Source of the DNA: Candidatus Colwellia aromaticivorans
GTDB lineage: Bacteria > Pseudomonadota > Gammaproteobacteria > Enterobacterales > Alteromonadaceae
Length of the DNA stretch: 64,000 bases
Reading direction: 5' to 3'
Assembly (NCBI RefSeq): GCF_003333305.1
Contig: NZ_QOLD01000098.1
Coordinates: forward strand, 1 to 64,000
In this document: piece after piece, positions 4,968 through 34,651 of the stretch
How the letters are laid out: every line of letters starts with the position of its first letter
Position numbering within the stretch: the stretch's first letter is position 1
The notes under the pieces: model-generated
The model's input: only the letters and a program-made list of their open reading frames with translations
Told to the model about the DNA's origin: nothing
Databases searched by the model: none
Made by a program: the position numbers and the translations under genes

Positions 4968-6332
4968 ATGACAAATGTTAATAACCAATTAAAGAAAAAA
5001 ATATTAATCGTTGATGACGATCCTAATCTACTGCGTTTACTTGGCATTAGGCTTTCTGCTGCAGGTTATAACGTAGAGTCTGCTGCGAGCGCAAAAATAG
5101 CGTTGGGTATATTAAAAAGTTTTCAGCCTCATATGGTTATTAGTGATTTGCGTATGGAGGGTATGGATGGCATGGCACTGTTTGAGCAAATTAGAAAGCA
5201 ACACCCACATATGCCGGTGGTTATTATGACTGCCCATGGCACTATTCCAGATGCTATCAATGCGACAAAACAAGGTGTATTTAGTTTTTTGACAAAGCCG
5301 TTTGAAAGCCAAGAGTTACTAGAAACAGTCCAAAAAGCGATACAACTGCAACCTTCAATTACTCAAAACACCCCTAAAGAGTCGTCTTGGCGGGCAAATA
5401 TAATCAGCCGTAGTGCAATAATGGAGTCTCTTTTACAACAAACTAATCAAGTGGCGCAAAGTGATTTTAGCTTATTAATCCACAGCGCGAGTGGTACAGG
5501 AAAAGAGTTGTTAGCAAAAGCTATTCACCAAGCCAGCCATCGCCATGATAAACCCTTTACCGCGATAAATTGTGCTGCAATCCCTGAGCAGTTATTAGAA
5601 TCAGAACTTTTTGGACATGCTAAAGGAGCATTTACCGGTGCAGGTAAAAATCATGTTGGGTTATTTCAAGCGACTAATGGTGGTACATTATTTTTAGATG
5701 AAATCGGCGATATGCCAATGAGTTTTCAAGTGAAGCTATTAAGAGCATTACAAGAAAAGGAAATTCGCCCTGTTGGCAGTACTCAATCAATAAAAGTAGA
5801 TGTTCGTATTATCTCGGCTACTCATAAAAATTTGCAGCAAGCAATAATTGATAAAACCTTTAGAGAAGACTTATATTACCGCCTCAATGTGGTTGAATTA
5901 GAATTGCCACCACTTTCGCAACGACGAGAAGACATACCATTATTGGCGCAACATTTTCTCTCTCATGTTGAGGTGAAGTCACACAATAAAGTTAAAGGCT
6001 TTTCAGCTGAAGCGATGGAGTTATTAATTAGCGCACCTTGGCCTGGTAATATTCGTCAATTGCAAAATGTGGTTGAACAAAGTGTTGCTTTATCAACAGG
6101 ATCATTAATAAATGCATCTTTAGTGATGAGTGCATTACGTGAAAAAACAACTCAATTACCTTCTTTTCAAGAGGCTAGAGATCAATTTGAACGTGACTAT
6201 TTAGCTAACTTATTAAAAATTACAGCCGGAAATGTTTCCCAAGCAGCGAGAATAGCGCAACGAAATAGAACCGAGTTTTATAAACTATTGAATAGACATC
6301 ATCTTAATGCTGAAGCGTTTAGGGAAGAGTAA
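4968..6332 (+). CDS. glrR: Sigma-54-dependent response regulator, GlrR/QseF type
   Basis: Cytoplasmic transcription activator. Domains: receiver (residues 1-125, DDD acidic pocket, phospho-acceptor Asp60 in VISDLRMEG), a sigma-54 AAA+ domain (about 145-375) with Walker A SASGTGKE, the GAFTGA loop that contacts sigma-54, and Walker B LFLDEIGD, then a Fis-type helix-turn-helix (GNVSQAARIAQRNRTEFYKLL). In enterics the orthologue activates glmY and so amino-sugar supply for the envelope; whether this holds here is inference. It is the last gene of the three-gene operon. A MITE starts one base after its stop codon. Confidence 0.88.
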   Translation: MTNVNNQLKKKILIVDDDPNLLRLLGIRLSAAGYNVESAASAKIALGILKSFQPHMVISDLRMEGMDGMALFEQIRKQHPHMPVVIMTAHGTIPDAINATKQGVFSFLTKPFESQELLETVQKAIQLQPSITQNTPKESSWRANIISRSAIMESLLQQTNQVAQSDFSLLIHSASGTGKELLAKAIHQASHRHDKPFTAINCAAIPEQLLESELFGHAKGAFTGAGKNHVGLFQATNGGTLFLDEIGDMPMSFQVKLLRALQEKEIRPVGSTQSIKVDVRIISATHKNLQQAIIDKTFREDLYYRLNVVELELPPLSQRREDIPLLAQHFLSHVEVKSHNKVKGFSAEAMELLISAPWPGNIRQLQNVVEQSVALSTGSLINASLVMSALREKTTQLPSFQEARDQFERDYLANLLKITAGNVSQAARIAQRNRTEFYKLLNRHHLNAEAFREE

Positions 6333-6538
6333 TACCATTTACATTAATTAAGGTTACAAAATTCAATGAGAATAAATGTTCAAGAACACAGGTTTTTAGT
6401 TCCAGACAAAACCTAAGTACCTACATCCATGTAAGCAAGGCGCTTGATTGAGTAATAGCTGGCTATTGGGATTGAAAGCAACGATGTATTGGATATTTAA
6501 GCCATTTGAAAATGATCACTTAGTTAGTGTAATTGGTA
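6333..6538 (+). repeat. 206-bp MITE with imperfect terminal inverted repeats
   Basis: The ends are 19-bp inverted repeats: taccatttacattaattaa at 6333-6351 and, read on the other strand, taccaattacactaactaa at 6520-6538 (16 of 19 matching). The interior has no ORF. A truncated inverted copy lies at 1639-1721. The element abuts the glrR stop codon, so it did not damage the gene but would replace its original 3' flank or terminator. No transposase gene of matching ends is visible. Confidence 0.72.
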
Positions 6539-6906
6539 TAAGTACATTGTTGACATAAAAAATTAAAACAGTAATGAGTTATAACACTTCACTGACATTT
6601 TATTTGTTAGCGTTAGATCTTTATCGAGTGTGATGAAAAAGTAATAAACAAGTTATTAAACGATAATCAATAAAATATTAATCTATTGTTCTAATGAACT
6701 TAATTCACGTTATCCTTGTTTATTAACTTTTTTATAAATTCATATTCGATTAGTGTTAATAAATATTTATAGTATTCTTTGACTTGGATCAAATATGGTG
6801 TTTATATTCTACTTACGTTATGTGCCCGTATTTCAGATTCAGTCAAAATATACGGTCTAACATTTTGCATAATGAATATTATTTTTAAATTATAAGGAAT
6901 TTTACC
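6539..6906. other. Leader region of the CBS-domain gene
   Basis: About 370 bp of very AT-rich sequence between the MITE and the CBS gene. It holds the FNR-like site at 6779-6792. Nothing else in it could be identified. Confidence 0.5.
6779..6792 (+). promoter_or_regulatory. FNR/Anr-like binding site
   Basis: The sequence TTGACTTGGATCAA differs from the FNR consensus TTGAT-N4-ATCAA at one base. If the centre is at -41.5, as in class II FNR promoters, transcription would start near 6827, which leaves a leader of about 80 nt before the ATG. This suggests oxygen-responsive expression of the CBS gene. CRP-like factors can also use similar half-sites. Confidence 0.45.
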
Positions 6907-8825: not shown

Positions 8826-11800
8826 ATGAAATTACCTAGTTTAGCGCTTAAAAATGCACAATTTACTATTACTATCGTCGCCTTATTGGTGCTGGTTGGT
8901 ATAGTGTCGTATTTTAATATGCCGCGCAGTGAAGACCCGCAGTTTGATATTCCAATAACTCTGATAGAAGTGATTTACCCTGGAGCATCACCTACGGATA
9001 TTGAAACCTTGGTGGTTGACCCACTAGAAGAAGAATTTGCAGATATTGATAATATTAAAAAAATTGAATCTCAAATTAAAAATGGTGGCACTCGCATTGA
9101 AATTACCTTTAATTATGGTTCAGATCCTGAATTAGCCTTTAATAAAGTACAACTTGCGGTTTCTTCTGTTAAACCCACACTACCGGATGGCGTACAAGAT
9201 GTCTTAGTTTTAAAAGCAACCCCTACTGCGGTGGCTATCGTTCAACTTGCCTTGTGGACCGAACCAACTAATTACAAACAGATGGAGTTTTATGCAAAGC
9301 TTTTAGAAAAGCGCTTAGAGACGATAGAGAGTGTTAAAAAAGCTGATATATGGGGTTATCCGCAACAAGTTGTAGCTGTCGATCTTAATTTAGATTTACT
9401 TTTACACCACAATATATCGACGACGCAAGTTATGCAGGTTTTACAGGGGCGTGCGACAAATATCACTCCAGGCTTTGTTAACGCCAATACTCGTCGCTTC
9501 AATGTGAAAGCAAGTGGTAATTTTGAAAAACTTGAACAATTAGAAAACACTATTGTTGTCTCTAGCGAGGATTTTTTGATACGGCTTAAAGATGTAGCAG
9601 AAGTTAGTTTTGCTAGCCAAGAGCCAAGTTATTTAGCTTATTTTGATAAAAAACCAGTGATATTTGTTACGGTTGAACAGCAAATAGGTACGAATATTTT
9701 TTCATTAACAGAATCTATTCAACAAGAAATAGCGCTATTTAAACAAACAATACCAAAAGATATAAGAATAGAAGTATTGTTTGAGCAGGCAGACAGTGTT
9801 GAAACTAGAGTGAATGGCTTTTTTGACAACCTTTGGCAAGGGCTTGTTTTAGTTGGCGTATTAGCTTTATTGTTTTTAGGTTTACGAGAGTCAATCGTTG
9901 TAATTCTTGTTATTCCACTTTCTTTTCTTATCGCAATCGGTTGGTTAGATTTTGCTGGCTTTGGATTACAGCAAATGTCGATAGTTGGTTTGATTATCGC
10001 GTTAGGATTGTTAGTTGATGATGCTATTGTGGTGACTGAAAGTATTCATCGAGAAAAAAGCAAATCAAAAAACATGGTTGAAGCGGCTATTAATGGCACT
10101 AAAAAGGTTGCTTGGGCATCAGTTAGTGGCACAGTGACTACTATGTTAGCCTTTCTTCCTATGCTAATGATTGCTAGTGATACAGGTGACTTTCTCCGAT
10201 CAATGCCAGTTACCGTTGTATTAGTCTTGCTAGCATCTTTGCTTTTGTCATTAACAGTTTTACCTTTATTAGCAAGTAAGAGCTTTAGCTTAAAGCCAAC
10301 TAAAGTTAAAACATTACAACATTATATTAATCACTTTGCGGAAACTCTTTATTCATCATGGTTAGTTAAGTTATTTAAATTTCGTTGGCTAGTTATTGCT
10401 ATTGCTATAGCTAGTTTACTTGCTATGTTGTCACTTTTTAGTCAAGTGGGTTTAAGTTTATTCCCCAAAGCTGAAAAATCAATGTTATTAATAAATGTTG
10501 AAGCACCGCCTAATTCATCATTAAGTTTTACCAATAATGTCATGCAGAAAATGACACTATTTATAGAAAAACAGCCGTTAGTTGAAAAAGTTGCCCTTAA
10601 CGTTGGTAATTCAAATCCTCGAATTTACTATAATGAAATACCAAAACGGGGCGTTGAAAAATACGGTCAAGTATTGGTAGTATTAAAAGAATATGATCCC
10701 GAAAAAGTATCGTCTTTAGTCAGTGTATTACGTAGTGAATTTAGCCAGTGGCAACAAGCTAACATAACGGTGAAAGAGTTTACTCAAGGGCCGGTAACAG
10801 ATCAGCCTATAGCCATTAGGCTTATTTCTGAATCACTCGATGATTTAGAGCAAGTTGCTAATGATTTAGCTGATAAAATGGCCAACACTGAGGGTGCTAT
10901 CAATATTGATAACCCCATAGGTGTAGCAAATACTGAGTTGAACCTGGAAATTGATTACGATAAAGCGGGCTTATCAAATATAGATATAAACACGTTAGAT
11001 ACAACGCTACAGTCAGTTTTATCTGGTATTAACATCGGACGTTTCAATGATATTAATGGTGAAAACTATCCAATATTGGTACGGAATAAAAATCCTGATA
11101 TTAATACCTTGTCAAATGTTTATATAACGAGTTTAACAGGGCAGCAAATCCCTTTAATGCAAGTAGTCAATCTTCGGTTACAAAAAGGTCAAACAAACTA
11201 CTTTCATCATAAAAAATTACGGATGGCAAAAGTATCTGCTGATGCAGCATCAGGTTATTCAGTTAAAGCCTTAACAGAAGAATTTATTCAATATATCGAG
11301 CAAAATGGTTTACCCATGGGTATGTATTACACATTAGGGGGACAAGAAGAATCTAGACAAGAATCTTTTGCGGGTTTAACACAAATAATGTTAATAACAG
11401 CTATTGGCATTTTTGCTATTCTAGTGTTGCAATTTAGATCGTTTATACAGCCCCTTATTATTTTTAGTTCAATACCCTTTGCGATGGCAGGCTCTGTTAT
11501 AGGCTTGTATTTAATGGGTTTATCTTTTTCTATGATGGCTTTTATTGGCTTAATTAGTTTATTTGGTATTGTGGTAAACAATGCCATTATTTTAATCGAT
11601 TGTACCAATAGAAACTTGGCGGAAGGTTTATCTAAAAAGCAAGCTGTGTTAGCGGCTAGTGCTACCCGGTTTACACCAATATTATTAACAACGTTAACCA
11701 CTATTGGTGGGCTTATACCCTTAACCTTGTATGGTGGGGCCTTATGGCAGCCTTTAGGTGTGGTACTTATCTCTGGGTTATGTGTTTCGGCTGTATCGAG

Positions 11801-11873
11801 TTTTTTACTCGTACCGATATTAACTGAAATTTTTACTCATAATGAGCAAGTACATACATTTACAAAAGCCTAG
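8826..11873 (+). CDS. RND-family efflux transporter permease
   Basis: A 1015-residue inner-membrane proton-driven pump of the AcrB/HAE1 superfamily. It shows the expected 12-helix layout: TM1 at about residues 11-30, a large periplasmic loop, TM2-6, TM7 after about 520, a second loop, and TM8-12. The proton-relay acidic pair is in TM4 (ALGLLVDDAIVVTES, near residue 400). The substrate cannot be told from sequence; drugs, metals and lipophilic compounds are all possible. It is translationally close to the adaptor and, with no third gene, forms a two-gene operon. Similar pairs are common in marine gammaproteobacteria. Confidence 0.92.
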   Translation: MKLPSLALKNAQFTITIVALLVLVGIVSYFNMPRSEDPQFDIPITLIEVIYPGASPTDIETLVVDPLEEEFADIDNIKKIESQIKNGGTRIEITFNYGSDPELAFNKVQLAVSSVKPTLPDGVQDVLVLKATPTAVAIVQLALWTEPTNYKQMEFYAKLLEKRLETIESVKKADIWGYPQQVVAVDLNLDLLLHHNISTTQVMQVLQGRATNITPGFVNANTRRFNVKASGNFEKLEQLENTIVVSSEDFLIRLKDVAEVSFASQEPSYLAYFDKKPVIFVTVEQQIGTNIFSLTESIQQEIALFKQTIPKDIRIEVLFEQADSVETRVNGFFDNLWQGLVLVGVLALLFLGLRESIVVILVIPLSFLIAIGWLDFAGFGLQQMSIVGLIIALGLLVDDAIVVTESIHREKSKSKNMVEAAINGTKKVAWASVSGTVTTMLAFLPMLMIASDTGDFLRSMPVTVVLVLLASLLLSLTVLPLLASKSFSLKPTKVKTLQHYINHFAETLYSSWLVKLFKFRWLVIAIAIASLLAMLSLFSQVGLSLFPKAEKSMLLINVEAPPNSSLSFTNNVMQKMTLFIEKQPLVEKVALNVGNSNPRIYYNEIPKRGVEKYGQVLVVLKEYDPEKVSSLVSVLRSEFSQWQQANITVKEFTQGPVTDQPIAIRLISESLDDLEQVANDLADKMANTEGAINIDNPIGVANTELNLEIDYDKAGLSNIDINTLDTTLQSVLSGINIGRFNDINGENYPILVRNKNPDINTLSNVYITSLTGQQIPLMQVVNLRLQKGQTNYFHHKKLRMAKVSADAASGYSVKALTEEFIQYIEQNGLPMGMYYTLGGQEESRQESFAGLTQIMLITAIGIFAILVLQFRSFIQPLIIFSSIPFAMAGSVIGLYLMGLSFSMMAFIGLISLFGIVVNNAIILIDCTNRNLAEGLSKKQAVLAASATRFTPILLTTLTTIGGLIPLTLYGGALWQPLGVVLISGLCVSAVSSFLLVPILTEIFTHNEQVHTFTKA

Positions 11874-11928: not shown

Positions 11929-13092
11929 CTATTTGTCTTCGTCAAGCTGATGAAACCTTGGATCTAGAGCATTAACCTTATTAATATTTACAGAATCTTT
12001 TTTAATTAGACCACTTAACTGTAGCCAAGACTTTGTTAACAAATGAGGAATGAGCAGCCGCAGAGGCATTCTCAGTAGGTGACCACGCCAATACGCAAGC
12101 TGCGCAGCTAATGAAAAACGCCACGATGCCGTGGTGCTGTGATGGACTGTAAATAGGTTAGTGAAGATGAAATCAATAGTGGTAAGATTAGTGATTTTCG
12201 GTTGATAACTTTCTACAAATGCTTGTGCAGTGTTGGATAACTCTCTGTTTAATATTCTGTTTAGATAACGCCAAGCATAAAATAATGACTGTTGTTGATT
12301 TATCTTTGTTCCTAAATCAATGAGTTGTTGACTAAAGTTTGCTTCACTTTCATCAAAATGGCTTAATAAAAGATCAAGATCTGATAAGCCACGTAATCCT
12401 TGCTCTAATTCACCTTCATGAAATAAATGTATTGCGCTGTGCAAAAACATAGCCGCAGGTGCTAGTACATAACTATGGTTACCATGAGTGGTATTGACAT
12501 TAAGCTTTAACGCGTCGGCACTTAATAAACTAATATCAATTATATTGTTGTTACAAACCGGTAAAATATTGTGATGAATATCTATTACTGTGCCACGTAT
12601 AATGTGTTGCATAGGAGGAATTTCATGCATGTAATCACGATAATAAGCCTGATCGTGATCGTCAGTTTTTTGTGACTTCCAACCTTGGCATTTTAGTGCG
12701 ATTTCTACTTTAGCAATATCACTCTGATTGAGTAAAAGATCAATGTCAGAAAAAAATCGCCCTTGTGCTAAAGGCAAGTCAGCTAATAAATAAGCGGTAC
12801 CTTTTAAGTAAATTGCTTTGATATCAAGTTTATTAAACAACTGATTTAGCTCTTGCACCTCTTGGTTTACTTGCGTGTGCAAATGAGCAACTTTTACTTG
12901 GTCACTATTAAAGTGGTTGAGAATTTTGTCAGGAACAGCATTCATTAAGCCATGGTTATTAAAAGTATAAGCAAGTCGTGCTAGCATATTTGCGCTGCTG
13001 GCTTGGCGTAATAATAAGTTCCAATCTTTTGAGTTAAAGCTTTTAATTATTTTTGGCGATTTTAATACTTTAACGAGTAGGGAAGTGTGCAT
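11929..13092 (-). CDS. Nucleotidyltransferase-fold protein of the HPr-rel-A cassette
   Basis: A 387-residue protein of the uncharacterised bacterial nucleotidyltransferase family (NTP_transf_5 type). The core has IYLKGTAYLL (about residues 94-103) and GRFFSDIDLLL (111-121), with the paired aspartates Asp116 and Asp118 expected to bind Mg2+ in a polymerase-beta-like site. A helical C-terminal half follows. Related proteins recur beside HprK-like kinases in exosortase-bearing genomes and in some lasso-peptide clusters, which suggests nucleotidyl transfer to a peptide or protein. It starts 1 bp after the kinase stop, the last gene of a four-gene operon. The substrate is unknown. Confidence 0.82.
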   Translation of the reverse strand: MHTSLLVKVLKSPKIIKSFNSKDWNLLLRQASSANMLARLAYTFNNHGLMNAVPDKILNHFNSDQVKVAHLHTQVNQEVQELNQLFNKLDIKAIYLKGTAYLLADLPLAQGRFFSDIDLLLNQSDIAKVEIALKCQGWKSQKTDDHDQAYYRDYMHEIPPMQHIIRGTVIDIHHNILPVCNNNIIDISLLSADALKLNVNTTHGNHSYVLAPAAMFLHSAIHLFHEGELEQGLRGLSDLDLLLSHFDESEANFSQQLIDLGTKINQQQSLFYAWRYLNRILNRELSNTAQAFVESYQPKITNLTTIDFIFTNLFTVHHSTTASWRFSLAAQLAYWRGHLLRMPLRLLIPHLLTKSWLQLSGLIKKDSVNINKVNALDPRFHQLDEDK

Positions 13093-13093
13093 A

Positions 13094-14011
13094 TTAACTG
13101 GCTAGCTCCTCAAAAAAAGCGAGTACTTCTTCTGTACTGCTGTAAGCAAGGGTATGGCATTGTGTATTATCAATAAGTTGTGCAACCGCGTTAAACCCTG
13201 CCTCGGCTAAAATGGCATAATTAAAACTATTTTCTATGACAGCCATAAAAGCGGTTGCTTTCTCAGTCGTTTTTGTATTTATTGGTTGGTTGGCTTGATA
13301 TTTAGGGAACACTATTGCAAATGGCGCAACTGTTTTTGCAACTTGCTGCACACTAGCTGTTGAAGGCTTTAAATGGCTTATTGTTCCTTTAGTTGTGTCA
13401 TCAACCACTTCACCTAGAATTGTTGCACAAGGCTGATTTAGGATGACATTAATAGATTCGTTTTTAAGACTAATAGGGCGAGCTAACGCATGTAATTGAT
13501 TGCTTTTTAGATCAATTAAAGCCATTTCATCTGAAAGTAAACGCCAACCGTTTAATGCCAACAAAGCACATAAGGTGCTTTTACCTGAGCCAGATTGCGC
13601 GGGTAATATTACGGACTTTCCATTCTTCTCTAAAACAGCACTGTGCAGTAGTAAATAATGATGAGCATGTTGTGCTATACACCAGTTCATTCCCCATTCT
13701 AAAAGTGGAAAAGCTTGGCTGGCAGGTAAAGGCAAAAAAGGGCTGGAATCATTACAATAAAAATTAATTTGTGGTTTTATAAACGAACGTAAGCCGCGCG
13801 GCTTTTTAATGGCAACATAAAAATCTATCAAATCATCGTGGCTTAGCAGTTGGAAGTCGCCATAAATTTTTTGTACATTGCTAGCGATACTAGATAATGA
13901 TGATTTAATGCAAAAAACAAAAGGCCCTACAGCGAGAACTAAGCCGTCATTTTTTAATTGTTGAATAATTTCATTGGTGCTTAGGCTACGAAGCGTTTTT
14001 TTTATAGGCAC
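13094..14011 (-). CDS. HprK-related kinase A
   Basis: A 305-residue kinase related to HPr kinase/phosphorylase. Residues 137-147 form the P-loop PAQSGSGKSTL (Lys144), followed by a Walker-B-like LLSDEMALID (about 158-167). The N-terminal 110 residues are family-specific and lack the HPrK/P N-terminal domain. Genuine HprK phosphorylates Ser46 of HPr, but no HPr gene is nearby. In paeninodin-type lasso-peptide clusters a similar kinase phosphorylates the precursor peptide, so the Tat-signal protein encoded upstream is a candidate substrate. That last point is inference; the family call is firm. Confidence 0.85.
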   Translation of the reverse strand: MPIKKTLRSLSTNEIIQQLKNDGLVLAVGPFVFCIKSSLSSIASNVQKIYGDFQLLSHDDLIDFYVAIKKPRGLRSFIKPQINFYCNDSSPFLPLPASQAFPLLEWGMNWCIAQHAHHYLLLHSAVLEKNGKSVILPAQSGSGKSTLCALLALNGWRLLSDEMALIDLKSNQLHALARPISLKNESINVILNQPCATILGEVVDDTTKGTISHLKPSTASVQQVAKTVAPFAIVFPKYQANQPINTKTTEKATAFMAVIENSFNYAILAEAGFNAVAQLIDNTQCHTLAYSSTEEVLAFFEELAS

Positions 14012-14055
14012 TGTAGTTTGTTACTATTTTTAACTCGACGCGTAACTACTAGATT

Positions 14056-14331
14056 TTACGATGAATAAACGCGAATTAATTTTAATTGCAAGAGGTTATC
14101 AATCATATCCTGAATATAATCTTTTAGCATCGTTTTTTCGTCATCAAGACAATCTTGTATAAAGAATTGTTTTAATTGCGATAATGGCTTGGGTATGTCG
14201 ACGGTGAGTTGGTTCAGTATTTCGTTAACATTACTGTCAAGGCAATGTGTTTGACCGGTATTCGGGTCAAATACGATGACTTGTTCACTGAAGTCTTTGG
14301 TAACTAAGTTACAGGTTTTTATTATTCGCAT
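14056..14331 (-). CDS. PqqD-family peptide chaperone (HPr-rel-A system)
   Basis: A small protein, 91 residues from this ATG, with the winged-helix PqqD/RRE look: a beta hairpin at the start (VIVFDPNTGQTHCLDSNVNEIL) and helices after it. PqqD proteins bind leader peptides and present them to modifying enzymes, so here it would recognise the precursor encoded 3 bp upstream. A TTG at 14355 would add eight residues and also lacks a clear ribosome site; the ATG was chosen because MRIIKTCNLV aligns better with a compact domain. Its position between the precursor-like protein and the kinase supports the chaperone role. Confidence 0.78.
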   Translation of the reverse strand: MRIIKTCNLVTKDFSEQVIVFDPNTGQTHCLDSNVNEILNQLTVDIPKPLSQLKQFFIQDCLDDEKTMLKDYIQDMIDNLLQLKLIRVYSS

Positions 14332-14358
14332 TGTCGTATTGAAGGTCGCTAGCAAATA

Positions 14359-14967
14359 TTATGAACCGTGAATGTCTGCTAATATACGTGCTACATTTTC
14401 ACGTGTCTTTTGATCACTTTCAGCGTTATCATAGATCTCTTGAATTTCTAAAATATCGTATTCATATGGAATATTTGGTGTAACAACATTTAAAACAGCA
14501 GCAGCAATTTGTCGACTAAATTCGTCAATACCTGTAAGACGGTTATGAATTGTTATCCCCTGGAATACAGAGTTTGTTGTATTCAAAGATCCTGAAAAAT
14601 TAGCGGGATCGTCAATATCAACTACTACAAAATATTGGTCTTCATAACCTCTACACCAGTTTAGCAATTTTTTACTTGGATCATTATTTGTGTAGTGTGA
14701 ATCATCTGCACCGACATACGAGTTTTCCCAATCAGTCGGATTTCTACCGCTACGAATATCACATTGAGCATTATGATCAGAAACATTTCCTGACATCATA
14801 CCAGACATACAAGCCGCGCCCCAAGCTGGTTTAGTTGAGCTAGCAATAACAATAGGTGCACCAATAGCGGCTTTTTTTAAAAAACTACGTCTTGCGTCTT
14901 TAGTACAAGTGTTTGTTTTTTGTGAACCTTTGTTTTGCTCTGAAGAGTTATTATTTTGCTCTAACAT
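14359..14967 (-). CDS. Tat-signal protein, likely substrate of the HPr-rel-A cassette
   Basis: A 202-residue protein of unknown function. After a polar, Asn/Gln-rich leader it has a twin-arginine motif (ARRSFLKKA, Arg26-Arg27), a hydrophobic stretch (AAIGAPIVIAS) and a likely cleavage region near KPAWGAA (residues 47-52). The mature part carries Cys53, Cys69 and one in NWCRG, and a helical C-terminus. Folded export by Tat is expected if the motif is real. It is the first gene of the minus-strand cassette, 3 bp or so from the PqqD gene. It could be the modified product itself or simply an exported effector; nothing in it identifies an enzyme. Confidence 0.72.
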   Translation of the reverse strand: MLEQNNNSSEQNKGSQKTNTCTKDARRSFLKKAAIGAPIVIASSTKPAWGAACMSGMMSGNVSDHNAQCDIRSGRNPTDWENSYVGADDSHYTNNDPSKKLLNWCRGYEDQYFVVVDIDDPANFSGSLNTTNSVFQGITIHNRLTGIDEFSRQIAAAVLNVVTPNIPYEYDILEIQEIYDNAESDQKTRENVARILADIHGS

Positions 14968-15058
14968 TCTATCAATCCTTTTTTACTAACAGTGATTACT
15001 AACAGACTGTCAGCTATTTTTACAAACAGCGTTGATTATATCAATATATAGCGTTGCC

Positions 15059-15074
15059 TGCACTTTTTGTGCCT
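15059..15074 (-). promoter_or_regulatory. Sigma-54-like promoter of the HPr-rel-A cassette
   Basis: On the minus strand the site reads AGGCACAAAAAGTGCA. It keeps the -24 GGCAC and -12 TGCA elements with the required 12-bp register between GG and GC. The predicted start is near 15048, giving a leader of about 80 nt. The first base and one base of the TTGC element deviate from TGGCACG-N4-TTGCA. The same string can form a GCAC/GTGC hairpin, so chance is possible. Confidence 0.42.
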
Positions 15075-15312
15075 AGTTATTTTAGTTGAATAGAAACAAT
15101 TAGTTAGTTGTTGTGTGGCGTTTTGTTTATATTAAGGTGTAAAAAATTCTTACATTTGTCGAAATATATTTTCTGAGTGAGTACAATGGTTTGGTTATTT
15201 CGTCATTATTCCTGTAATGCCCTGGGTAACATTGCATGGATAATGACTTATATAGGCATCATGTGGATGCTCACCTCCTGAATCCAAAAATAAATTATAA
15301 CCTCGATAAAAT

Positions 15313-15329
15313 TCTCGAATATGTCGAGA
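15313..15329. promoter_or_regulatory. Inverted repeat upstream of prsK
   Basis: TCTCGA-N5-TCGAGA, a perfect 6-bp inverted repeat 31 bp before the ATG. It might be an operator, but no known regulator is suggested by it. Confidence 0.25.
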
Positions 15330-15360: not shown

Positions 15361-17385
15361 ATGGCATTAGCGGGAATCTCAGGATATTTATTAGCGACCT
15401 GCGCTTATTTAGTGTTTATTTTATTGTTATTTGCCGCGCGGAATAACACATTATCAGGAAAACTAGTATTAATAGGCAGTGTGCTAATACTGGCTTCCTC
15501 AGTTACTGCCGCATTACAAATAGATCAGGCTTTTTCATTACAATGGGTTTTGCTAATAGAAACCTTCAAACTGGCTATTTGGTCATTACTAATTTTATCT
15601 ACCCAAGCCAATGTGAGCTCTATTAAAGCAGCTTTAGGGCAACCACAAATTAAAAAGTACCTGCTTACTTGGTTATTTTTGTCTTTAATTTGTTGGGCAG
15701 GTGCTTTGTTTCAGCCGGAAGGCAATAAGTATCTATTTTCTTTATTTCTATTGCTAAATTTGTGGTTGATGGTATTGCTTGAACAGCTTTATCGTAACGC
15801 AGATGTGAAAGTTAAATGGGCTTTATGGTCGTTGATTATTGCCTTAGGTACGAGTACGGTTTTTGATTTTGTGTTATTTGCACAAGCCGTCATGGTAAAT
15901 CAATTAGATTTTAGTTATTGGTATGCTAGAGGGTTTGTTACGGCTATTGGTATGCCGTTAATCCTAGTAAGTACACGACGTATAAAAAATTGGTCTGTTA
16001 ATGTTTTTGTTTCTCGAGATGTGGTTTTTTATAGCTCAATGTTACTTATTTCAGGCCTTTATTTATTGCTGTTAGCTTTTGCGGGCTATGTTATTAATTA
16101 TTTTGGTGGGGCTTGGGGGAGTGTTATTAGTATCGCTTTTCTATTACTCGGTGGTACCGTATTAGCAGCATTGCTAATGACAGAAAGGGTACGAAGTGAA
16201 GTGAAGGTGTTTATTAGCAAGCACTTTTTTGCTAATAAGTATGACTATCGCCTTGAGTGGTTAAAATCAATTGATCAGTTAAGTAGCTCAAGCAATGAAA
16301 ACTATTATAAAACGGCAACTGAAATCATTTGCTCTTCCTTAAATGTGAGTCAAGGTGCCTTGGTTATTAAAGTATCACAGGGCAATTATACTTGTGTGTA
16401 TCAACAAGATTTAGACATAGAAAAACGATTATTACATCATTTATTGGCTGCTGATAAGTTTTGTCAACAGAAAGGGTGGATTATTGATGTTCGAGAATAT
16501 GCCAATGTAGAAAAGAGTTATCCTGAATTAGCACTTGATGTTGATTATTGTCGTACTCAACAAATTGATATTATTATTCCTATCTTTAAAAAGAAAGAAG
16601 TTAGCGGCTTCTTTTTGTTGTCATTACCTAATGGTCGCAGTTTTCTTAATTGGGAAGACAGGGACTTGTTATTTGCCGTGTCCAAGCAGCTTAGCAACTA
16701 TATGTCGTTGAATGAAGTAAATGATAGCTTAGCAGAATCTAAGCAGTTTGAAGCTTTCCATCGTATGTCAGCATTTTTAGTTCATGACTTGAAGAACATT
16801 CAAGCACAGTTGGGACTAATTAACGCTAATGCTAAACGACACAGAGATAATCCTGAATTTATTAGTGATGTCTTTGAAACAATAGATTCAGCCACGGACA
16901 AACTTGATAAGGTGTTAACGCAGTTACGTAATAAGCAAGTTGCTGAATCAACCAAAAAGTGCATTAATGTTGGAAAATTGTTAAAGCAAATAGCGCTCCA
17001 GCGTAATGTGATGATGCCTCAGGTTATACTTGAGGTATCAGCAGAAATTGAAATTGTTATTGAACAAGAAACCTTTTATTCTGTACTTAATCATATAGTG
17101 CAGAACGCGCAAGAAGCGACTAAAGATGATGGCTGGGTTAAAATTAGAGCAGACATCATAGCTGAAAGTTTGCATATAGCCGTGCTTGATAATGGCTGCG
17201 GTATGTCCAACGATTTCATTAAAAACCGCTTATTTAAGCCTTTTGATACTACTAAGGGTAATGCAGGCATGGGGATTGGTGTTTATGAAGCTAAGCAATT
17301 TATTGAAAATTCTAGTGGTACAATGCAAGTAACTAGCTTTGAAGGTGAAGGTAGTATTTTTCATTTAACAATTCCATGCGGATAA
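15361..17385 (+). CDS. prsK: XrtA/PEP-CTERM system histidine kinase PrsK
   Basis: A 674-residue membrane sensor kinase. About eight hydrophobic helices fill residues 5-275, followed by a GAF-like domain (about 310-450), an unusual phospho-acceptor box FLVHDLKN (His475) and a HATPase domain (NHIVQNAQEA, LDNGCGM, GMGIGV). This architecture is specific for PrsK, which is found with exosortase A. It pairs with the PrsR regulator 29-50 bp downstream to control PEP-CTERM genes and exopolysaccharide through sigma-54, as studied in floc-forming bacteria such as Zoogloea. The ATG follows AGGAATAAT. The input signal is unknown. Confidence 0.93.
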   Translation: MALAGISGYLLATCAYLVFILLLFAARNNTLSGKLVLIGSVLILASSVTAALQIDQAFSLQWVLLIETFKLAIWSLLILSTQANVSSIKAALGQPQIKKYLLTWLFLSLICWAGALFQPEGNKYLFSLFLLLNLWLMVLLEQLYRNADVKVKWALWSLIIALGTSTVFDFVLFAQAVMVNQLDFSYWYARGFVTAIGMPLILVSTRRIKNWSVNVFVSRDVVFYSSMLLISGLYLLLLAFAGYVINYFGGAWGSVISIAFLLLGGTVLAALLMTERVRSEVKVFISKHFFANKYDYRLEWLKSIDQLSSSSNENYYKTATEIICSSLNVSQGALVIKVSQGNYTCVYQQDLDIEKRLLHHLLAADKFCQQKGWIIDVREYANVEKSYPELALDVDYCRTQQIDIIIPIFKKKEVSGFFLLSLPNGRSFLNWEDRDLLFAVSKQLSNYMSLNEVNDSLAESKQFEAFHRMSAFLVHDLKNIQAQLGLINANAKRHRDNPEFISDVFETIDSATDKLDKVLTQLRNKQVAESTKKCINVGKLLKQIALQRNVMMPQVILEVSAEIEIVIEQETFYSVLNHIVQNAQEATKDDGWVKIRADIIAESLHIAVLDNGCGMSNDFIKNRLFKPFDTTKGNAGMGIGVYEAKQFIENSSGTMQVTSFEGEGSIFHLTIPCG

Positions 17386-17435
17386 AGCGTGTGAATAAAT
17401 AAAACATTGAGATTATGAAAGGGTATAGCTTAGCT

Positions 17436-18785
17436 ATGGAAAAAGTATTAATTGTTGATGACGATTTAGGTATACAAAAACAGCTGAAATGGAGCTTGTC
17501 TGATTACAGCCCGATCCTTGCTGGAGATAGGGAGGCAGCTATCGCAGCAGTTAGACGTTATGAGCCAAAGGTTGTCACCTTAGATTTAGGATTACCGCCA
17601 GATGCAGCTAATGCGAGTGAAGGATTAAAAGCACTAGAAGAAATTCTTGCTATAGCACCACACACAAAAATCATAGTCATCACCGGTAATGAGGATAGAA
17701 CTAATGCATTAAAGGCCATTTCTGCTGGCGCTTATGATTTCTATCAAAAGCCTATTGATGCAGACGTTATTAATGTAATTATTTCACGTGCGTTGACTTT
17801 AGCGAACATTGAAAGTGAAAACCGCACAATGCGCGCTGTTACAGATAGTAATATTGGCATTATTGGCAATAGCGCAGCAGTTGAACGTTTATGTACCATG
17901 ATAAAACGCATTGCGCCAACAAATATTACGGCATTATTGTTAGGTGAAAGTGGCACTGGCAAAGAAGTAACCGCCAAGGCTGTTCATCTGGCGAGCGATC
18001 GAAAAAACAAGCCTTTTGTCGCAATTAACTGTGCTTCTATTCCTGAAACATTATTAGAAAGTGAATTGTTTGGTTTTGAAAAGGGCGCATTTACTGGCGC
18101 TCATAAAACGACTAAAGGAAAAATAGAATGTGCAGAGGGAGGCACTTTATTTCTTGATGAAATAGGTGATATGCCCTTTAATTTACAAGCTAAATTGCTA
18201 CGTTTTTTACAAGAAAAAATAATTGAACGACTAGGCGGCAGAGGAGAAATTCCAGTAAATGTTAGAGTCGTTTGTGCAACGAATCAAAATTTAGAACAAA
18301 TGGTTGCAAACAAAGAATTTAGAGAAGATCTGTTTTACCGAGTAAGCGAGATAACCCTAAATATTCCGCCATTACGTGATCGCGATGAAGATGTTTTAAT
18401 TCTTGCTCAATATTTTCTGCAACTTTATGCTACAGAATATAAAAGTAATGCTAAATCATTTTCGGATGATGCTATTAGTGCTATTAAAGCTCATAGATGG
18501 CCAGGAAATATTCGTGAATTACAAAACAAAGTTAAATCTTCTGTAGTGATGTGTACAGGAGTGCAGGTGACTGCTTTTGACTTAGGATTCTTTGACCATA
18601 ATTATAGCAACTATGAACTATCATTAAATTTACGTACGGTAAGAGAACAGGCAGAATCGATTGCTATTCAAAAGGCCTATGCGCTTTCTGAAGGGAATAT
18701 ATCTAAAGCAGCAGAACTATTAGGCGTAACTAGGCCAACATTGTACTCATTAATTGAAAAATATGAATTGAATATTAATAGTTAG
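17436..18785 (+). CDS. prsR: XrtA/PEP-CTERM system response regulator PrsR
   Basis: Sigma-54-dependent activator. The receiver domain begins MEKVLIVDDD and has its phospho-acceptor at Asp50 (VVTLDLGLP). The AAA+ domain carries Walker A LGESGTGKE, the GAFTGA loop (FEKGAFTGAHK) and Walker B LFLDEIGD. A Fis-type helix-turn-helix closes the protein (GNISKAAELLGVTRPTLYSLI). An ATG at 17415 would add seven residues; the internal ATG is preferred because AAGGG lies upstream and the receiver starts there in homologues. Its probable targets here are the sigma-54 promoters at 19745-19760 and perhaps 15059-15074. Confidence 0.92.
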   Translation: MEKVLIVDDDLGIQKQLKWSLSDYSPILAGDREAAIAAVRRYEPKVVTLDLGLPPDAANASEGLKALEEILAIAPHTKIIVITGNEDRTNALKAISAGAYDFYQKPIDADVINVIISRALTLANIESENRTMRAVTDSNIGIIGNSAAVERLCTMIKRIAPTNITALLLGESGTGKEVTAKAVHLASDRKNKPFVAINCASIPETLLESELFGFEKGAFTGAHKTTKGKIECAEGGTLFLDEIGDMPFNLQAKLLRFLQEKIIERLGGRGEIPVNVRVVCATNQNLEQMVANKEFREDLFYRVSEITLNIPPLRDRDEDVLILAQYFLQLYATEYKSNAKSFSDDAISAIKAHRWPGNIRELQNKVKSSVVMCTGVQVTAFDLGFFDHNYSNYELSLNLRTVREQAESIAIQKAYALSEGNISKAAELLGVTRPTLYSLIEKYELNINS

Positions 18786-18968: not shown

Positions 18969-19676
18969 TTATTTTGAAATTGAACTTTGACGCCTACCTG
19001 CAATACCTAATAAGGCTAAAGCAAATAATGCGATAGATGTTGGCTCGGGAACTTGCTGTGGCGTTGTTCCGCAGTTATTATCACATTTGTTTCCATAAAA
19101 GGTGATGTGCGATATGTTATGAGGCTCAGGAGCAGCCCAATAGCCGCTTGTCACAGCAACAGAAACATTTAAACAACTTATTGTAAATTCATTTCCTGCT
19201 TGGCAATCGTTATTATCAATACTGTCTTGGCTAACCATCCAATTTAATATAAACCCTTCGCTACCGCCTTTTGATACCCAGAAAGAAATCCCCGGATATG
19301 ACGAGCCTGAATAAGTCCAATTTCCTTCAGTAGCTCCGTTGATAGAATTAGAAAAACTCCAGTCAGTCGAGGAGGTAGAACCAAGAATAAATTCATTATT
19401 AGCGGAATTTTCAGCATCATACTTTGCCATTACTGTTGCAAAAATGTCAGATCCAGATGTGGGGACATGAGTTATTTCACAGTTAGTAAAACCCGAACCA
19501 AAATACCCTGCACAATCATTGATATTTTTAATGTCACCATTGTTTTTATATTCTGTAATATTAACTGAAACCTGAACTAGATCGCCGACAGGAGTTAATG
19601 AAGCATTAACAAAAAAGCTCGTAAAAAGAAAAGCCCCTATTAACATTGCCTTTGAAAAATTTTTTCTTGAAAACAT
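18969..19676 (-). CDS. PEP-CTERM sorting-domain protein
   Basis: A 235-residue secreted protein that should be cleaved and anchored by exosortase A. Residues 1-25 are a signal peptide (ending FFVNA). The C-terminus is a textbook PEP-CTERM tail: VPEPTS, a hydrophobic helix (IALFALALLGIA) and a basic end (GRRQSS). The body is Ser/Asn/Gly-rich with several cysteines and no recognisable enzyme domain; structural or adhesive roles are typical. An upstream TTG at 19736 would put 20 residues before the signal peptide, so the ATG at 19676 is used. It agrees with the sigma-54 start predicted near 19734, giving a 58-nt leader. Confidence 0.9.
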   Translation of the reverse strand: MFSRKNFSKAMLIGAFLFTSFFVNASLTPVGDLVQVSVNITEYKNNGDIKNINDCAGYFGSGFTNCEITHVPTSGSDIFATVMAKYDAENSANNEFILGSTSSTDWSFSNSINGATEGNWTYSGSSYPGISFWVSKGGSEGFILNWMVSQDSIDNNDCQAGNEFTISCLNVSVAVTSGYWAAPEPHNISHITFYGNKCDNNCGTTPQQVPEPTSIALFALALLGIAGRRQSSISK

Positions 19677-19744
19677 AATATTCACCCGAAGAAGGAATAA
19701 TTCAATTATACACGTAGCATAATTATCCAATAACACAGTCTATT

Positions 19745-33154: not shown

Positions 33155-34651
33155 ATGAATGATGTAACAAACACAAAAATGACTAATATCAATAGAAATA
33201 TAGCTATTTGTTTTACTATTTTTATAGTTTGGGGGCTTTCATTTTACAACACTATATTTTCAGCAGTGGAAATTTGGCAAAAATCAGATACATTTGCTCA
33301 CGGTTTTTTTATTCTCCCAATAGTTATATGGCTTTTTTCTAAAGAACGTGTTTTTTTGTGTTCTAGTATGGTGAAACCAAGTTCATTAGCATTATTTCCT
33401 TTCTTAGCAGCAGTTGTACTGTGGCTAATTGGCCAAGCTGCAGATATTAGCGTAGTAAGCCAATTTGCTAGCTTTGCATTACTGCCAATTTCTTTTTGGT
33501 TGATCTTTGGTAATACATTCGCTTGGAAATTAAAATTTCCTTTGTTTTTTGTTATGTTTTCGGTACCCATGGGGAATGAGTTGATCCCCATTTTACAAGA
33601 GGTAACTGCTGAGATAACGGTGTTTTTTATTAAGCTATCGGGTATTCCTGTTTATTATGAAGGGCTGTATATCACAATTCCTACTGGAGTTTTTGAAGTT
33701 GCGGTTGCTTGTTCTGGTATTCGCTATTTGATAGCAAGTGTGACGATAGGATGTTTATATGCACACCTTACCTATTCAACACTCAAAAAGCAGATCATTT
33801 TTATTATATTCGCCGCACTTGTTCCTATTTTAGCAAATGGAATTCGTGCATATTTGATTGTACTTATTGCCCATTTATCAGAATTGAAATATGCCACAGG
33901 TTTTGATCACTTGATATATGGTTGGTTGTTTTTTGGACTTGTTATTGGTTTGATGTTTTATATCGGTGGTTTTTGGGCAGAAAATAATGAAAAACAAAAT
34001 AATGCGGTGCAAGAGAACGACGGAAGCTTTACCTTTAAATTTTGGTTGATTCTCCCTATTTCCTCGTTGATTACTGCATTAATTTTAAATTTTAATATTG
34101 TTGAAACTGCCCCACCATCTTCACCCAAAACGGTTAATGTTTTTTTAGATTTTGAGGCTGTAGAGAATAATCCTTCTTGGGGCGTGAACTTTGATAACCC
34201 AATAGCAGAGTTTTTTGGAAAAAATGCTGATAATATCGAAATTTACACTGCAGCTTTTGCTCATCGACAAACTCAAGGTGAATTAATTTCATCTTCTAAT
34301 AAAACATATAATAATTCTCGTTGGTCAATTGTTAATCGTGACTCAGTAGATATTAACTACCAAGGTAATAATATTGTAGTCACTCATGAACAGATCGTGA
34401 CAGCAAGAGGGAGCATGAGGGATACTTATTATTGGTATCAAATTGATGGTAAAGTTATTAATAACCGATTAGAAGTTAAAGCAAAGCAAGCAATACTTAG
34501 TTTGTTAGGATCTAGTAGTATTGATTATGTCAATATTGTTTCATATGAACATGACGGAAAAGCATCAGAAAATGCGATGATAGAACAATGGTTAAAAGAT
34601 AACTTCGCTGCAATTGTATTAGCTAGCAATAACGATGAATTATTAAAATGA
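33155..34651 (+). CDS. xrtA: Exosortase A fused to an EpsI domain
   Basis: Inner-membrane transpeptidase-like enzyme that recognises PEP-CTERM tails, cleaves them and passes the protein to the surface. Eight or so helices occupy residues 15-275, with the catalytic triad visible as Cys186 (VACSGIRYL), Arg231 (NGIRAYLIV) and His252 (FDHLIYGW). A further helix near 295-310 leads to a periplasmic EpsI domain (about 315-498), which in many loci is a separate protein. AGGATG precedes the ATG. The likely substrate in this window is the protein at 18969-19676. The stop overlaps the next start (ATGA). Confidence 0.95.
   Translation: MNDVTNTKMTNINRNIAICFTIFIVWGLSFYNTIFSAVEIWQKSDTFAHGFFILPIVIWLFSKERVFLCSSMVKPSSLALFPFLAAVVLWLIGQAADISVVSQFASFALLPISFWLIFGNTFAWKLKFPLFFVMFSVPMGNELIPILQEVTAEITVFFIKLSGIPVYYEGLYITIPTGVFEVAVACSGIRYLIASVTIGCLYAHLTYSTLKKQIIFIIFAALVPILANGIRAYLIVLIAHLSELKYATGFDHLIYGWLFFGLVIGLMFYIGGFWAENNEKQNNAVQENDGSFTFKFWLILPISSLITALILNFNIVETAPPSSPKTVNVFLDFEAVENNPSWGVNFDNPIAEFFGKNADNIEIYTAAFAHRQTQGELISSSNKTYNNSRWSIVNRDSVDINYQGNNIVVTHEQIVTARGSMRDTYYWYQIDGKVINNRLEVKAKQAILSLLGSSSIDYVNIVSYEHDGKASENAMIEQWLKDNFAAIVLASNNDELLK

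Follow-up and report, generated by a model that had tools for sequence, protein, structure and literature searches.

A Tat-signal protein gene cassette with an HprK-related kinase and a PrsR/sigma-54-type control site in Candidatus Colwellia aromaticivorans

Genes and proteins of the cassette

The first 64,000 nucleotides of contig NZ_QOLD01000098.1 of Candidatus Colwellia aromaticivorans (GCF_003333305.1), called the window below, contain a four-gene cassette on the minus strand. From right to left, the genes encode a protein of 202 aa with a twin-arginine translocation (Tat) signal (14359..14967), a PqqD-like protein predicted to be a discrete RiPP recognition element (RRE; RiPP, ribosomally synthesized and post-translationally modified peptide) (14056..14331), an HprK-related kinase A of 305 aa with a GTG start (13094..14011), and a NTP_transf_5 nucleotidyltransferase-type protein of 387 aa, here the NTP enzyme (11929..13092). 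The PqqD-like gene was preferably read from the ATG at 14331 (91 aa); a TTG start would give 99 aa (14056-14355). This gene content and position were as an earlier note on this DNA had described them. The Tat gene is separated from the PqqD-like gene by 3 bp, or by 27 bp if the ATG start is used; the next gap is 44 bp, and 1 bp lies between the kinase and NTP genes. The tight packing stated in that note held, and its figure of 1-3 bp between most genes was generous. The cassette as read contained no HPr, again as stated there (no search for HPr was made).

The kinase scored 367.8 bits against TIGR04352 (HprK-related kinase A; cut-off 200), and its closest named match, 86% identical, was from a Colwellia metagenome-assembled genome. 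Invariance counts for both enzymes refer to sequences with E < 1e-60. On this basis H123, G141, G143, K144, S145, T146, D161, E162, K183, T206, K208 and G209 were kept in 125/125 kinases. Alignment of a profile of 21 kinases with HprK (1jb1) placed H123, the P-loop residue K144 and D161 on the His, Lys and Asp that are catalytic in HprK; the residue after D161 was Glu, where HprK has a second Asp. Lasso-tailoring kinases carry a His-Lys-Asp-Asp motif (PMC9266682; papers are cited by PMC number). In lasso tailoring, an HprK-like kinase (poly)phosphorylates a precursor serine, and the placing of a hexose on the phosphoserine needs PsmN (PMC9266682).

The NTP enzyme scored 153.7 bits against PF14907 (NTP_transf_5; cut-off 31.2). 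K97, G98, R112, D116, D118, D171, H173 and H218 were kept in 116/116 sequences, and a search of the protein against PDB sequences gave nothing meaningful. The KG...DxD...D motif, intact in all 116 sequences, would suit direct nucleotidylation, in which AMP or a different NMP is transferred by the enzyme onto the Tat protein or its phosphoserine, the kinase only primes or regulates, and no sugar takes part; according to the lasso review, PsmN may also be a true nucleotidyltransferase (PMC9266682). However, the in vivo precedent gave a hexose on phosphoserine (PMC9266682), and direct nucleotidylation is considered unlikely.

The PqqD-like protein gave 33.4 bits (E 6.7e-8) against TIGR04353 and narrowly missed the cut-off of 35; it is therefore named PqqD/RRE-like by fold and not as a formal HPr-rel-A PqqD member. 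It had no PF05402 match. Its model was confident (predicted local distance difference test, pLDDT, 93.7), and the best PDB match, the only one at E <=0.001, was the complex of TbiB1 with its leader (5v1v; E 1.4e-4, probability 1.00). Lower-ranking matches were more TbiB1 chains, the RRE of PbtF and other RiPP enzymes that bear an RRE. As modelled, the protein has the RRE fold found in the lasso-peptide leader-binding protein TbiB1, in line with the leader-binding type proposed earlier. A role as the PqqD of pyrroloquinoline quinone synthesis was rejected: the one PF05402 match of the genome lay on another contig (C31), beside PqqC-, PqqE- and PqqB-like open reading frames (ORFs; by eye).

The Tat-signal protein carries the motif RRSFLKK, with the twin arginine at 26-27, followed by C53-x-S55-G-x-x-S59-G-N-x-S63...C69 and a helical C-terminal part at about 140-200. 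It had no NCBIfam or Pfam family match at or above any cut-off, and none of these models described its family (76 members scanned, with stray matches at E 0.01 of 2-3 members each). The twin arginine preceded a hydrophobic stretch; the second Arg was present in 81/81 aligned sequences, and the first was Arg in 79 and Lys in 2. The AlphaFold model had a mean pLDDT of 63.9 and was good only in the helical C-terminal part and in a piece near 70-80. No match at E 0.001 was obtained in a PDB fold search with this model, and a search of the family profile against PDB sequences was uninformative.

Mean column identity in the Tat family was 13% (76 members: 75 locus sequences and the window, with those of L039, L044, L053 and L073 excluded). 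R27 and S55 were invariant in this set, and R26, C53, S59, S63, C69 and N160 were kept in at least 90% of it. In an alignment of 82 sequences, S55 was present in 79/82, S59 in 79/82, S63 in 74/82, C69 in 75/82 and C53 in 77/79. A regular expression found the stretch in 63/116 Tat sequences, with Ser at +3, +7 and +11 from Cys in 83, 83 and 79%. The distance from RR to Cys was 26-30 residues in 82/116 sequences; therefore, the CxSGxxSGNxS...C stretch sits just behind the Tat-type signal. From these alignments, this short Cys/Ser stretch is the likely target of modification.

C53 and C69 were conserved about as well as the serines, and a Cys soon after the signal was common to distant lineages too. 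Both points would fit a cofactor role, in which the kinase and the NTP enzyme make a small cofactor containing a nucleotide or phosphate, the PqqD-like protein shields the Tat signal as a chaperone until this cofactor is joined to C53/C69, and the serines are structural; chaperones of the REMP (redox enzyme maturation protein) type do bind Tat signals (PMC3316669). However, the PqqD-like model resembles the leader-binding proteins of RiPP pathways, the HprK-like kinases of the lasso and LPP pathways act on a peptide serine (PMC9266682, PMC13381572), and a Tat-signal protein of SYSRP repeats at locus L108 looks like a substrate with many serines. A cofactor role thus appears improbable, and modification of the serines is preferred.

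Control site and the PEP-CTERM regulon

Upstream of the Tat gene lay a PrsR-type box, TGTAAGAATTTTTTACA (15138..15154, minus strand), with the dyad TGTA-N9-TACA, which corresponds to motif 1 of PMC1569441. A sigma-54-type -24/-12 promoter with GG-N10-GC, AGGCACAAAAAGTGCA (15059..15074, minus strand), was located 63 nt after motif 1 and 91 nt before the Tat gene. PEP-CTERM genes are preceded by a 17-nt motif 1 with 3' TTTACA, a mean spacer of 62.8 nt and then GG/GC, and the spacer between motif 1 and GG-N10-GC is limited to 32-92 nt (PMC1569441). The motif 1, the spacer and the GG-N10-GC of the window site all agreed with this description. The divergent neighbour of the cassette, as the earlier note had it, was prsK (15361..17385, plus strand; TIGR02916, 788.1 bits), the likely sensor of the regulon, followed by prsR (17415..18785, plus strand; TIGR02915, 747 bits), which encodes a sigma-54 activator; motif 1 is its predicted binding site.

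The composite site, with spacers of 61-73 nt, preceded all five PEP-CTERM genes of the genome that scored at least 24 bits. One of these genes was that adjoining prsR (18969..19736, minus strand; site at 19849-19745). A weaker PEP-CTERM candidate, L118, was without the control site. Elsewhere in the window, the composite site occurred only as a palindromic pair at 50.6 kb. By primer extension and RT-PCR, a PEP-CTERM gene has been shown to depend on RpoN (PMC9850573). The sequence comparison places the Tat operon under the same PrsR/sigma-54 control site as the five clearest PEP-CTERM genes of this genome, with binding by PrsR as a prediction. The Tat protein itself was rejected as a PEP-CTERM protein, as it was not among the 11 TIGR02595 matches (E up to 10) of the genome.

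The site was then counted across cassette loci, upstream regions below a set minimum length being skipped. Of 81 Tat genes, 62% had a sigma-54-like site with a score of at least 24 in their upstream region, compared with 5% of shuffles; for pqqD the values were 15% and 6%. The composite site was defined as TGT-N11-ACA, 30-95 nt and GG-N10-GC, and the strict form required the dyad. The strict site was present at 36/79 Tat genes, 3/745 other ORFs of the same loci and 2/1580 shuffles, and at none of the other cassette genes (0/72 pqqD, 0/80 kinase and 0/78 ntp genes; 0/230). The loose site was present at 41/79 Tat genes, 7/745 other ORFs, 23/1580 shuffles and 3/230 other cassette genes (1/72 pqqD, 1/80 kinase and 1/78 ntp). 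The 745 control ORFs were chosen greedily and include false frames; cleaner controls are provided by the shuffles and by the other three genes of the cassette. Of seven additional Tat genes, six had the loose site, and three or more of the six seem to come from species that had been counted before. The match L042|13995-15314 (E 8e-4) was excluded from the Tat locus and control-site counts and remained among the 81 genes scored for sigma-54 sites; L080 and L051, without a plain RR match, were excluded from the Tat reference list of 79.

On its other flank, the cassette was bordered by an RND pump gene (8826-11873). To the right lay genes of the XrtA/PEP-CTERM system: prsK, prsR, prsT, and genes for an XrtA-system ATPase, a chain-length protein, a femAB-type protein and glycosyltransferases; an exosortase match was found at 33266-33979. 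The NCBIfam scan covered 16 and the Pfam scan 6 of the approximately 60 ORFs of the window.

Conservation and distribution of the cassette

Using iterative profiles, the four families were sought at named kinase loci (the best 80 of 112). The Tat family, whose conservation with the cassette the earlier note had chosen as the test of its reading in a comparison of gene neighbourhoods, was detected in 75, PqqD in 72 and the NTP enzyme in 76 of the 80 loci. Because all four families were present in 67/80 loci, the association is not due to chance, and the refuting case named in that note, a Tat protein not conserved with the cassette, did not arise. In 23 further loci of the window's order with a kinase over the cut-off (L083-L104 and L109), the Tat profile matched in 23/23, NTP in 23/23 and PqqD in 10; a small ORF with a weak score or none occupied the gap in 11 of the 13 loci negative for PqqD. 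The PqqD alignment contained 55 of 56 listed ORFs and the window protein (L080 excluded; ORFs up to 345 nt were listed). PqqD and kinase were naturally fused in one reading frame in L009, L011 and L012.

The Tat gene was missed in L009, L011, L028, L054 and L065. In the first three, the contig ends close behind the last cassette gene, the position of the Tat gene in 17 other loci. Five named loci had two Tat genes with a single kinase, and L026 had two cassettes. The two cassettes of L026 (3878-10004, on a Paraglaciecola contig) were divergent and of different subtypes, and the PqqD profile matched neither; the Tat protein at 6096-6653 (minus strand) had the usual stretch without its Cys.

Among the 75 loci, the Tat gene was first in 56, after the kinase in 17 and on the opposite strand in 2; it is therefore movable. 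This mobility and the HprK ancestry of the kinase would agree with a passenger Tat protein, merely co-regulated with a kinase and NTP enzyme that serve another target in an HPr-like regulatory circuit. However, the moved Tat genes remained within the cassette, the strict box stood at Tat genes and at no pqqD, kinase or ntp gene, and a profile search across 247 genomes from the order detected no full-length Tat family member in a genome lacking the kinase. In that search 25 genomes matched, of which 22 were kinase-positive; the matches of the other three covered profile positions 78-177 only, the C-terminal part. One kinase-positive genome (G172) was missed, and the gene was present at its locus (L103). 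A passenger role is regarded as very improbable, and the Tat protein is preferred as the substrate of the cassette.

In the same 247 genomes, the kinase was over the cut-off in 23 and PrsK was present in 81, including 23/23 of the kinase-positive genomes (lists compared by reading; hypergeometric 7e-13, which assumes independent genomes, which they are not). In a sample of 398 genomes of the phylum, 61 had the kinase, 44 had PrsK and 24 had both (counted by eye), and an exosortase was present in 24/24 of the latter. PrsK accompanied the kinase in 13/13 genomes of the window's class and in 11/11 of one family (f63). PrsK was not found in 37/61 kinase-positive genomes, many of the 37 being incomplete; therefore, the PrsK/PrsR wiring is lineage-specific. 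An exosortase matched at E 1e-15 in 7 of the 37, one of them (G322) below the curated cut-off. In the fetched stretches of the 80 named loci, tblastn with the window proteins detected PrsK in 16 and PrsR in 19.

In the window's class and f63, the cassette thus belongs, as an optional element, to the PrsK/exosortase world; elsewhere it mostly stands by itself. The link to the exosortase programme suggested in the earlier note was upheld within the lineage by the control site and within the order by co-occurrence, and failed as a general rule: an obligate exosortase link was rejected on the phylum sample.

In PrsK-less lineages (L153-L167), a Tat-signal protein was detected beside the kinase in 12/15 loci (some weakly, E up to 3e-4) and PqqD in 14/15. 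The signal of these Tat proteins was retained and the mature part differed; a Ser between the end of the signal and the first Cys was seen by eye in 12/12 Tat-positive loci.

Proposed pathway and related cassettes

Analogy with known pathways suggests, with a probability of roughly 60%, that the cassette is a RiPP-like phospho-tailoring system which uses the Tat signal as leader and is close to the lasso and LPP pathways. By the same analogy, the cassette probably decorates serines of a Tat-signal protein before folded export in many Proteobacteria. In the window, PrsK/PrsR and sigma-54 would turn on the operon jointly with the PEP-CTERM genes through the site observed. The modelled RRE of the PqqD-like protein would bind the Tat-signal part and present the precursor to the enzymes. 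The HprK-like kinase would then phosphorylate at least one serine of CxSGxxSGNxS, as suggested by the paeninodin and LPP kinases, and the NTP_transf_5 enzyme, by comparison with PsmN, would build on the phosphate, a sugar or nucleotidyl group being the most likely addition. The decorated protein would be exported folded by Tat, and signal peptidase would cut off the leader, so that the decoration would end up close to the new N-terminus. Where PrsR controls the cassette, the product would likely act in the cell-surface/exopolysaccharide layer.

The LPP systems of Bacillota (PMC13381572) likewise have a discrete RRE, an HprK-like kinase and a NTP transferase beside the precursor. The likeness extends to the LPP precursor, whose conserved N-terminal leader precedes a variable rest, and to the LPP clusters, which were discovered embedded in capsular polysaccharide loci. 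In LPP the phosphorylated serine (S3) comes third after the leader, and a signal-peptidase-like enzyme removes that leader (PMC13381572), much as is predicted for the serines and the Tat signal of the cassette. In contrast to LPP, the leader of the cassette is a twin-arginine signal without YxxPxVLxHQ (no Tyr occurs in residues 1-55 of the window precursor), the substrate has about 200 residues, and a PrsR/sigma-54 control site is present. No SpI-type signal peptidase or MsbA-like exporter, by which LPP also differs, was found between the genes flanking the window cassette.

With the tailoring of the lasso peptides paeninodin and pseudomycoidin (PadeK/PsmK and PsmN; PMC9266682), the cassette shares the His/Lys/Asp pattern of the HprK-like kinase, a NTP-transferase homologue and a B1-type RRE. 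It differs in the position of the conserved serines, which are beside the signal and not C-terminal, and in the absence of a macrolactam cyclase and a B2 leader peptidase, neither of which was found in the window locus between the RND pump gene and prsK. The NCBIfam 'HPr-rel-A system' (TIGR04352 and TIGR04353) is the same kind of system by its kinase, over the cut-off, and by its PqqD, just under it; its model names cover two enzymes and not the Tat substrate. The two-part control site and its spacing are common to the PEP-CTERM/PrsK-PrsR regulon (PMC1569441), whereas the substrate of the cassette carries a Tat-type signal and was not among the PEP-CTERM matches of the genome.

In the open-licence literature, no paper was found that used the names or families of the HPr-rel-A system or paired any two of exosortase, PqqD and HprK. 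Combinations of HPr kinase, PqqD, nucleotidyltransferase and twin-arginine returned lasso papers only, and RRE with twin-arginine and HprK returned the LPP paper and otherwise unrelated ones. For Tat signal with RiPP, no title on such a system was among the matches listed. In its main text, the LPP paper is silent on twin-arginine, Proteobacteria/Pseudomonadota, PqqD and exosortase (PMC13381572).

Several observations weigh against the phospho-tailoring reading. The Tat signal model TIGR01409 gave only E 0.8 on the window protein, below its formal cut-off, and matched 3/76 family members at E 0.01. The SGxxSGNxS stretch was absent from the 12 Tat-positive loci of the PrsK-less lineages. PqqD was the least conserved part, with no profile match in 8/80 named and 13/23 order loci, and L054 and L065 had no Tat gene and no contig end to account for the miss. 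No strict box was present at 43/79 Tat genes and no loose box at 38/79, and a sixth PEP-CTERM match of the genome (L117), just passing the cut-off together with its neighbours, was without the control site. In the LPP study, no effect of the NTP transferase could be detected in the host organism employed (PMC13381572).

The phospho-tailoring reading would give the HPr-rel-A system a concrete candidate substrate with a named target stretch and a tie to a known regulator, and it suggests that RiPP-style tailoring reaches Tat-exported proteins. If true, RiPP chemistry, Tat export and exosortase/biofilm surface proteins would be joined, and a route to an unusual phospho-sugar decoration of proteins would be opened. 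More tentatively, and less likely than not, the cassettes may represent a new class of ribosomal products, with a Tat signal as leader, a core of RRE, HprK-like kinase and NTP enzyme that would tailor one or more serines next to the future N-terminus, and Tat and signal peptidase in place of a dedicated exporter and protease. Its substrates would range from cores of about 15 residues to 20-kDa proteins; in XrtA bacteria it would form part of the PEP-CTERM programme, perhaps with an exopolysaccharide anchor or primer decorated by phosphodiester-linked sugar.

A smaller type of cassette was found in four genomes through weaker kinase matches. It consisted of a Tat-signal precursor of 61-81 residues, a kinase and a NTP enzyme in this order (L105:907-3442, L110:728-3341, L111:706-3241 and L175:1228-3710). 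In the precursor, a core of some 14-15 residues, e.g. APRSCRGNGTKKCT, followed the Tat-type signal RRxFxxKxGKLAAxTPxA...MSPxxSA; these peptides are candidate Tat-leader RiPPs. The kinase had 375-394 residues with an extra N-terminal part, which may be PqqD-like (one of three scanned matched TIGR04353 weakly, at E 0.028). The NTP enzyme gave 99.7 bits against PF14907 in L105 and profile matches in L110 and L111, and was recognised only by eye in L175. In the related loci L176 and L177, no such peptide was found in 420 nt upstream. The PrsR site was present in 0/5 upstream regions (L105, L110, L111, L175 and L108). At L108:851-2463, the gene for the SYSRP-repeat Tat-signal protein was followed by that for an HprK-like kinase in which a PqqD domain (PF05402, 35.3 bits; cut-off 23.4) lies at the C-terminal end.

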